A DNA stretch of 64,000 nucleotides. It comes from Pedobacter deserti (GTDB taxonomy: Bacteria > Bacteroidota > Bacteroidia > Sphingobacteriales > Sphingobacteriaceae). The notes under the pieces are model-generated. The model saw only the letters and a list, made by a program, of their open reading frames with translations, searched no databases and had not been told where the DNA came from. The stretch spans positions 620,001-684,000 of the forward strand of contig NZ_JAFMZQ010000001.1 of NCBI RefSeq assembly GCF_024436415.1, given 5' to 3'. Below are positions 31,140 through 32,535 of the stretch, in pieces; the first letter of the stretch is position 1; the number at the start of each line of letters is the position of its first letter. Position numbers and translations under genes: made by a program.

Positions 31140-31700
31140 ATGGCAAAAGCATCAGATATAAAAAACGGCAACATCCTTCGCTTCAACGGAGAACTGGTAC
31201 AGGTTGAGGAATTTATCCACCGTACACCAGGTAACCTGCGCGCTTTTTATCAGTCTAGAATGCGAAACGTGAAAACCGGTAAACTGGTTGAATACAGGTT
31301 TCGTGTTGACGAAGAAGTAGAAATTTGTCGTGTAGAAACCAATGACTATCAGTATTTATACGAAGATGGTGATGCATTGGTGGTGATGGACAACAACACG
31401 TTTGAGCAGTTCAATATCCCTAAGGTATTGTTCGGTAAAAGTGTCCGCTTTTTGAAAGAAGGCATGAACGTGATCATCGCATTTGAAAGTGACGAGCCGA
31501 TCATGGCGCAAACGCCTTCTCATGTGGAATTGGAAGTAACGTACTCTGAGCCTGCTGTAAAAGGAGATACTTCTACAAATGCATTGAAGTATGCGACCGT
31601 AGAGACAGGCGTAGAGATCAAAGTGCCTATGTTTATCAATCAGGGCGATAAGGTTAAGATTGATACCCGTACAGGTGATTACGTAGAAAGAGTAAAATAA
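31140..31700 (+). CDS. efp: Elongation factor P
   Basis: Relieves ribosome stalling at polyproline stretches. 186 residues in three beta-barrel domains (N-terminal KOW-like MAKASDIKNGNILRF, the OB domain EFRR-like YRFRVDEEVEICRVE, and C-terminal VETGVEIKVPMFINQGDKVKIDTRTGDYVERV shown in part). The tip of domain I reads RTPGNLRAF: the position of the lysine that is modified in Escherichia coli EF-P (K34) is Arg34 here, so the EpmA/B lysylation route cannot apply. Own promoter and a strong terminator: a monocistronic unit. Confidence 0.95.
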   Translation: MAKASDIKNGNILRFNGELVQVEEFIHRTPGNLRAFYQSRMRNVKTGKLVEYRFRVDEEVEICRVETNDYQYLYEDGDALVVMDNNTFEQFNIPKVLFGKSVRFLKEGMNVIIAFESDEPIMAQTPSHVELEVTYSEPAVKGDTSTNALKYATVETGVEIKVPMFINQGDKVKIDTRTGDYVERVK

Positions 31701-31737
31701 GAATTTTCATAGTTTAGTTTTAGGTTTAGGTTGATTG

Positions 31738-31774
31738 AGGCTTCGGAGTGGTTCCCGAAGCCTTATTTTTTTTT
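31738..31774 (+). terminator. efp terminator
   Basis: 9-bp stem AGGCTTCGG / CCGAAGCCT with 8-nt loop, followed by TATTTTTTTTT. A classical intrinsic terminator. Confidence 0.9.
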
Positions 31775-31788
31775 GTGCCTATGGTTGT

Positions 31789-31873
31789 AAAATGATGTGC
31801 TCCTTCGAGGCTGGAATCTTTTGCCCGCTTCGCGGGACAAAATTTCCTAGGCCGCTCAGCAACACATCATTTT
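31789..31873. repeat. 85-nt nested palindromic element
   Basis: Outer arms AAAATGATGTG (31789-31799) and CACATCATTTT (31863-31873) are perfectly complementary over 11 bp. Inside, the arm is resumed by GGAA...TTCC, TTTTG...CAAAA and ends in CCCGC-TTC-GCGGG. The whole folds into one long interrupted hairpin. It lies between the efp terminator and the next promoter and codes for nothing; it looks like a dispersed palindromic repeat or a non-autonomous mobile unit. Confidence 0.65.
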
Positions 31874-31942
31874 AATGCGAAAGGTTCAGTTAAAAAATGC
31901 GGTCTTCGGGATGAGGGGTGATGTTATTGCTGGGGTTGTTGA

Positions 31943-31950
31943 TATCTTTG
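31943..31950 (+). promoter_or_regulatory. -7 element of the 5-FTHF cyclo-ligase gene
   Basis: TATCTTTG, 21 nt before the ATG at 31972. It overlaps the longer open frame upstream of that ATG and so decides the start. Confidence 0.55.
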
Positions 31951-31971
31951 TTGAGAATAATGATGTTTTAC

Positions 31972-32535
31972 ATGAAGAAAGCGGAGATCAGAAAGGAGGC
32001 TATGAGGCAGCGTAAGGCGTTGTCGGAGCTGCAGGTTGCCGAGTTGAGTTTGGGTTTGCTGGAACAGTTTAAAAGGCTTGATTTTACCGGGGTAAAGACG
32101 CTTCATGTTTTTCTGCCAATTGCAGAGAAGAACGAGCCGGATACTTTTTTGTTTATTGAATGGTTACAGGCGGAACATCCGGACGTAAAGATTATTGTGC
32201 CGCGGGCGGACTTTGATTCTGCCTTAATGACCAACCACGTGTACGCTGGGCGTGAGGACTTGCAAAAAAATCTTTATAATATCCTGGAGCCGCAGAAATC
32301 GGCCTTGCACACGGGCGACGTGGGTATGGTACTGGTGCCTTTACTTGCCTTCGATCGCCGTGGCTACCGCGCGGGCTACGGTAAGGGGTTTTATGATCGT
32401 TTCCTAAGCGGCCTTGAGACCCTTAAAGTGGGGGTCTCCTTTTTTGGACCGGTTGAGGAAATTGAGGATGTGCATGAGAATGATGTCAGGCTGGATTGCT
32501 GCATTACCCCGGAGCACATGTACTCGTTTGATTGA
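31972..32535 (+). CDS. 5-formyltetrahydrofolate cyclo-ligase
   Basis: ATP-dependent conversion of 5-formyl-THF to 5,10-methenyl-THF in one-carbon metabolism (MTHFS family). 187 residues from ATG 31972 (MKKAEIRKEAMRQRKALS), the family's usual N-terminal helix; the 18 codons upstream are hydrophobic nonsense overlapping the promoter. Diagnostic C-terminal motif GYRAGYGKGFYDRFL, preceded by VLVPLLAFDRRG. Convergent with the exodeoxyribonuclease III gene, with only 14 nt between the stops and no visible terminator. Confidence 0.93.
   Translation: MKKAEIRKEAMRQRKALSELQVAELSLGLLEQFKRLDFTGVKTLHVFLPIAEKNEPDTFLFIEWLQAEHPDVKIIVPRADFDSALMTNHVYAGREDLQKNLYNILEPQKSALHTGDVGMVLVPLLAFDRRGYRAGYGKGFYDRFLSGLETLKVGVSFFGPVEEIEDVHENDVRLDCCITPEHMYSFD

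Follow-up and report, generated by a model that had tools for sequence, protein, structure and literature searches.

A dispersed family of terminator-like gene-end hairpins in Pedobacter, represented by an atypical copy behind efp in Pedobacter deserti

In Pedobacter deserti, the intergenic region between the gene for elongation factor P (efp) and a 5-formyltetrahydrofolate cyclo-ligase gene carries an 85-nucleotide nested palindrome, which raises the question of what kind of element it is and what it might do at the end of a gene. The original prediction took it for a dispersed palindromic repeat, either REP or MITE-like, lying between a terminator and a promoter. The window, i.e., the whole 64,000-nucleotide stretch of DNA that was analyzed, contains the following features around the palindrome:

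31140-31700, + strand: elongation factor P gene (efp), upstream of the element (Pfam EF-P domains)
31736-31765, + strand: intrinsic terminator of efp with a T run behind it, ahead of the element (terminator scan)
31785-31878, + strand: the element, a member of the gene-end hairpin family of Pedobacter (matches model R1 in full)
31788-31799, + strand: 5′ outer stem TAAAATGATGTG, the A-tract side, complementary to 31863-31874
31809-31828, + strand: 5′ half of the core, comprising GGCTGGAA, an unpaired TC (31817-31818), TTTTG, and CCCGC (fold; conservation in 98 copies)
31829-31831, + strand: apical loop TTC (sequence, fold, and comparison with 98 copies)
31832-31853, + strand: 3′ half of the core, comprising GCGGG, a bulged A, CAAAA, T, TTCC, a bulged TA (31848-31849), and GGCC (fold)
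31863-31874, + strand: 3′ outer stem CACATCATTTTA with a weak T-tract of only four T (T run of 4)
31972-32535, + strand: 5-formyltetrahydrofolate cyclo-ligase gene, downstream (PF01812)

The palindrome is real, and its architecture was confirmed in every predicted part. The perfect 11-bp outer arms are AAAATGATGTG (31789-31799) and its exact reverse complement CACATCATTTT (31863-31873), lengthened to 12 bp by the pair T31788-A31874; the interrupted inner arms can be read in the sequence of 31789-31873, and the central CCCGC-TTC-GCGGG occupies 31824-31836. The segment 31780-31882 folds with −37.7 kcal/mol on the + strand (z −4.0) and −43.7 kcal/mol on the − strand (z −6.2), and none of 200 shuffles on either strand folded equally well. 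The expected terminator ahead of the element is present at 31736-31765, while a scan for sigma-70-type sites, the only promoter type covered, found none of the promoter expected after it (0 sites in 31650-32000). The copy starts 84 nt after the efp stop codon, behind efp's own terminator, and the likely cyclo-ligase ATG, chosen by eye against relatives, lies 97 nt past the outer stem.

The efp 3′ untranslated stretch itself (31701-31775, consisting of GAATTTTCATAGTTTAGTTTTAGGTTTAGG and the terminator) is nearly unchanged behind efp in other Pedobacter. It resembles the Bacteroides sRNA family FopS (RF04319) at 29.2 bits, rising to 33 bits in locus L046 of G093, against a gathering score of 56, and is possibly a 3′-UTR-derived sRNA. 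Two EF-P matches occur in 18 of 24 genomes of the same genus, and one in the P. deserti genome.

Whether the palindrome has relatives depends strongly on how they are sought. A BLAST search of its own genome returned the copy itself, its match in reverse complement (E 0.016), and a further six short matches, and searches of four genomes of the same genus (G002, G012, G026, and G032) returned three to four matches each, in which the inner core was shared more than the outer arms. A covariance model (R1), built from 16 copies including the one in the window, scored the latter at 68.1 bits, matched nowhere else in the window at E up to 1 apart from the antisense match of the copy to itself, and recovered a second, diverged copy in the same genome (C1:1151321-1151410, 46.5 bits). 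The family thus appears single-copy in BLAST searches, whereas a structure model detects it immediately. This second copy (L093 8322-8411, G000:C1:1151321-1151410) has part of its inner region repeated behind it, and its core resembles, by eye, a hairpin behind cysN in G093.

Model matches at E up to 0.01 were found in at least 31 of 99 Pedobacter genomes when at most the best 41 candidates per genome were scored. The complete 7.6-Mb genome G119 gave 53 matches at E up to 1, corresponding to 42 distinct places and 11 antisense matches. An order-wide search, scoring at most the best 16 candidates per genome, was positive in at least 22 of 250 genomes at E up to 1e-4, all in one genus of the 16 searched; both searches used stricter filters, so that weak copies outside the genus may have escaped them. 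An exact core pattern likewise retrieved 19 stretches from named genomes, all of them Pedobacter. The copies are unevenly spread, since 800 kb of G119 (two blocks) contained none despite the 42 places in the genome as a whole, and three copies may stand in tandem, as in L090 10257-10546 (G032:C16) and L253 2985-3341 (G220:C2), with periods of 98 bp and about 132 bp. The prediction of a dispersed palindromic repeat therefore holds for the genus (31/99 genomes; 42 places in G119), with only two copies in P. deserti itself. A single copy without relatives, which would have refuted the prediction, is not what was found, given the diverged second copy and the relatives in the genus. A phage or plasmid origin was rejected, as no viral contig carried the exact core pattern, copy L033 had no phage match, and the copy in the window had no plasmid match. 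No description of the family was found in the literature, a weak negative from a search that was thin on subscription journals.

What is conserved among the copies is primarily the structure. In the 16 copies, aligned without reference to structure, 84.6% of cells at paired positions could pair, compared with 76.5% after shuffling, and 15 of 35 pairs had double changes. In 98 copies aligned to the model, where the alignment leans to the structure, the values were 91.2% versus 70.6%, with double changes at 34 of 35 pairs. The outer arms differ between copies yet stay complementary, even at orthologous gene ends, and the comparison shows that double changes maintain base pairing while the arms turn over in sequence. 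Seven of the 25 unpaired columns of the consensus have one base in 93-100% of the 98 copies: a T and a C in each of the two internal loops (5′ and 3′), two positions in the apical loop, and the bulge A. The remaining unpaired columns fall to 34% identity, and some paired columns are equally conserved. The bulge has two nucleotides in 91/98 copies (TA in 75/98), and a 2-by-1 loop is kept in 80/98. These conservation values are biased upward since the copies were found with the model, and the copies are partly orthologous. The copy in the window departs from the family in its apical loop, TTC, where the commonest loops are CTGAAGAA and CTGAAAAA.

No Rfam family matched over the copy in the window, and none reached its gathering score in 19 relative loci, where the best overlap with a copy was ar35 in L037 (38.4 of 45 bits). 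In E. coli, 6S RNA adjoins the cyclo-ligase gene. It was considered for this reason and rejected, there being no Rfam match over the element.

Placement relative to genes was scored for 150 copies. From 98 and 142 model rows, 161 copies were picked by hand, leaving out self-antisense matches, some weak rows, and repeat fetches; omission of the same-species twin of the copy in the window (L097) gave 160, and six copies inside ORF calls and four lacking a flanking gene were not scored. Genes were called with an in-house ORF caller whose training set was a single genome, and expected values were obtained by random placement, 20,000 times, in the intergenic DNA of two copy-free blocks of G119 (800 kb in total). 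A sense gene lay upstream of 127/150 copies (33% expected), 105/150 were within 60 nt of a sense stop codon (11.5% expected), and 88/150 stood between convergent genes (5.5% expected). When one copy was drawn from each of 87 upstream-gene clusters (500 draws), the means were 71.0 sense, 57.9 within 60 nt, and 51.2 convergent. Among neighboring copies within 3 kb, the order was +− in 42 cases, ++ in 6, and −+ in 2 (all 160 copies, orthologous loci included), as would be expected if each of two convergent genes had its own copy.

The feet of the hairpin add to this picture. In the 144 copies of at least 45 bits that were used for foot and flank counts, the 3′ foot had a run of five or more T in 107 and the 5′ foot a run of five or more A in 105; the corresponding value for T in random intergenic 26-mers is 11.6%. 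The family thereby shows both the stem followed by a T-tract and the position behind sense genes that are looked for in intrinsic terminators, the position being 84 nt from the stop in the case of the copy in the window. The sequences thus show that most copies are oriented, with a sense gene upstream whose stop codon is within 60 nt (in some copies it falls inside the element) and with A and T runs at the feet.

Comparison of the same gene ends across species was informative as well. Behind cysN, a model match was found within 300 nt of the stop in 20/30 loci (E up to 0.05), with arms that differ but pair; in G295 the match has the opposite orientation. The cysN locus L271 (G032:C27) ends in long G and T homopolymers, perhaps a contig-end assembly artefact. 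Behind a metallo-hydrolase gene, 10 of 27 genomes had a model match (two weak, at 31.5 and 22.6 bits), 8 had another hairpin with a T run, and 9 had neither by these criteria, although several of these nine fold into hairpins with shorter or no T runs. One of the eight, G079, keeps the outer arms of G087/G099 and lacks the apical part between two GAATCT repeats; G094 looks similar. Within one species, G080 has a copy at this site, whereas G000, the P. deserti genome analyzed here, is without a 158-bp block containing it; its flanks abut at the stop codon, and no hairpin is present. The gene opposite the metallo-hydrolase is polA by eye, a name that was not used in the analysis. Behind efp, the copy is identical in G080 (L097), G012 and G093 have family copies with other arms at the same place, and G014 has a hairpin-forming stretch that the model does not report; the model matched at 2 of the 20 efp loci searched (G000 and G012). 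At these gene ends, the copies occupy places where some related species carry other hairpins with T runs.

Taken together, we consider it probable (roughly 0.6) that the palindrome is a copy of a lineage-specific, dispersed, terminator-like gene-end hairpin family with a conserved core that is possibly recognized. Judged by its members, the family consists of hairpins of roughly 85-100 nt at gene ends in part of Pedobacter. The evidence from placement and structure is strong, and that from the shared gene-end sites is supportive. In this reading, the element would be transcribed into the 3′ end of the mRNA, and the base of the stem, next to a U-tract, would serve as an intrinsic terminator that could often work on either strand, which would explain why the copies favor convergent genes. 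The inner core contains several nearly invariant unpaired bases and would be recognized by a putative factor such as an RNA-binding protein or a nuclease that sets the fate of the 3′ end.

Several observations count against a role in termination: (i) usual intrinsic terminators have a much shorter stem; (ii) 23/150 scored copies have no sense gene upstream, including those in the tandem arrays L090 and L253; (iii) G000 has no hairpin at the site where G080 has a copy; and (iv) the copy in the window has only four T and stands behind a good terminator. Termination in general does not depend on the core, given that a genome contains tens of copies. As a member of its own family, the copy in the window is atypical and a weak example because of its four T, its distance of 84 nt from the stop, the good terminator ahead of it, and its uncommon apical loop. 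Its T run falls short of the five or more seen in most copies, and the terminator scan does not list it. Given the four-T tract, the unusual loop, and the efp terminator ahead, it is doubtful that this copy terminates transcription; it may serve as a back-up or be a relic.

A bolder extension, which we regard as tentative and rather doubtful, is that the fixed unpaired core bases label the 3′ ends of tens of mRNAs in each genome for a single dedicated, putative factor of this Pedobacter clade (an RNA-binding protein, nuclease, or termination factor), a lineage-specific 3′-end code spreading by replacement of plain terminators. In any case, a gene-oriented repeat in the same sites as ordinary hairpin terminators links repetitive DNA with transcript-end formation, two subjects that are usually treated apart, and the plain and core-less variants at the same site in sister species form a natural test set for the apical part of a terminator.

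The same distribution could also be read as that of a non-autonomous mobile element of the MITE or YPAL type inserting beside or inside gene-end hairpins, its structure serving mainly transposition and any effect on transcription being a by-product. The restriction to part of one genus, the tens of copies, the tandem arrays, and the presence/absence difference between two genomes of one species (G080/G000) would all fit, as would the stop codons that 27 copies contain at set positions (14 at −11, 5 at −10, and 8 at −4; for example, TAAAAAATAACC). The targets of YPAL are likewise described as extending across dyad symmetry or lying next to it, and the element as co-translated with upstream genes (PMC2229807). 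We nevertheless consider this reading unlikely. Direct repeats of five or more in the flanks occurred in 48/144 copies, compared with a shuffled mean of 41 and a maximum of 59, so that the expected target duplications are not in excess, and none is evident at the G080/G000 site. The arms are inconstant, the sole presence/absence block is, at 158 bp, longer than the element and could have arisen in either direction, many positions are common to several species, and no transposase was identified in a search for Y1 enzymes only. The MITE-like character originally proposed is not borne out, given the absence of a direct-repeat excess and outer arms that vary even at orthologous places.

It could further be argued that the arms are complementary only through template-switch correction of quasi-palindromes during replication, with no selection on an RNA. 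Such correction would give double changes without function. It should also remove the two-nucleotide bulge and the 2-by-1 loop, which are kept in 91/98 and 80/98 copies, and it leaves placement and T-tracts unexplained; we therefore regard it as improbable.

Mobilization as REP/REPIN sequences by a RAYT (Y1 transposase) would suit palindromes that often occur as inverted pairs, and is very improbable nonetheless. Y1_Tnp was found in 1/31 carriers versus 55/68 non-carriers (56/99 overall), the sole carrier match being partial with an internal TGA, and there was none in the P. deserti genome. REP hairpins have GTAG/GTGG as their foot motif, which only 6 of 144 copies have at one foot and 7 at the other (a count without shuffle control), and the hairpin here is about 90 nt. 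The Y1 distribution and the motif counts contradict the REP assignment of the original prediction. RAYT-type transposases are nearly absent from element carriers and common among the sampled non-carriers of the genus, a pattern that may partly reflect clade, which is not separated here from presence of the element. Equally remote is a recombination site of the integron attC type that functions in single-stranded form, which would fit an imperfect hairpin behind sense genes with variable arms and some fixed unpaired bases; it is contradicted by the lack of attC boxes RYYYAAC/GTTRRRY, found in neither order at the two feet of any of 144 copies, and the genes concerned are scattered over the chromosome.

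Among known systems, REP, BIME, and REPIN elements are dispersed palindromes that form inverted pairs. The Pedobacter family shares both properties and differs in having no intact RAYT in 31 carriers, no GTAG/GTGG foot, and a longer hairpin. Pedo-repair RNA (RF01715) is likewise a structured RNA listed for Pedobacter (PMC2864571), but it has no match in the window or in the 19 copy-bearing loci. The YPAL or RU-2 element of Yersinia, according to PMC2229807, is a dispersed palindromic repeat of about 168 bp and resembles the present family in its targets at or beside dyad symmetry and its co-translation with upstream genes; compared by description, it differs in its length and its duplications of 3-26 bp, none being evident in the Pedobacter family, whose arms vary. 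Intrinsic bidirectional terminators share with the family an A run, a stem, and a T run, a position just behind stop codons and between convergent genes, and compensatory evolution, which has been reported for Bacillus cereus terminators (PMC5381666). Unlike ordinary rho-independent terminators, however, the Pedobacter element measures 85-100 nt with internal loops, is dispersed, and carries a similar core behind unrelated genes.
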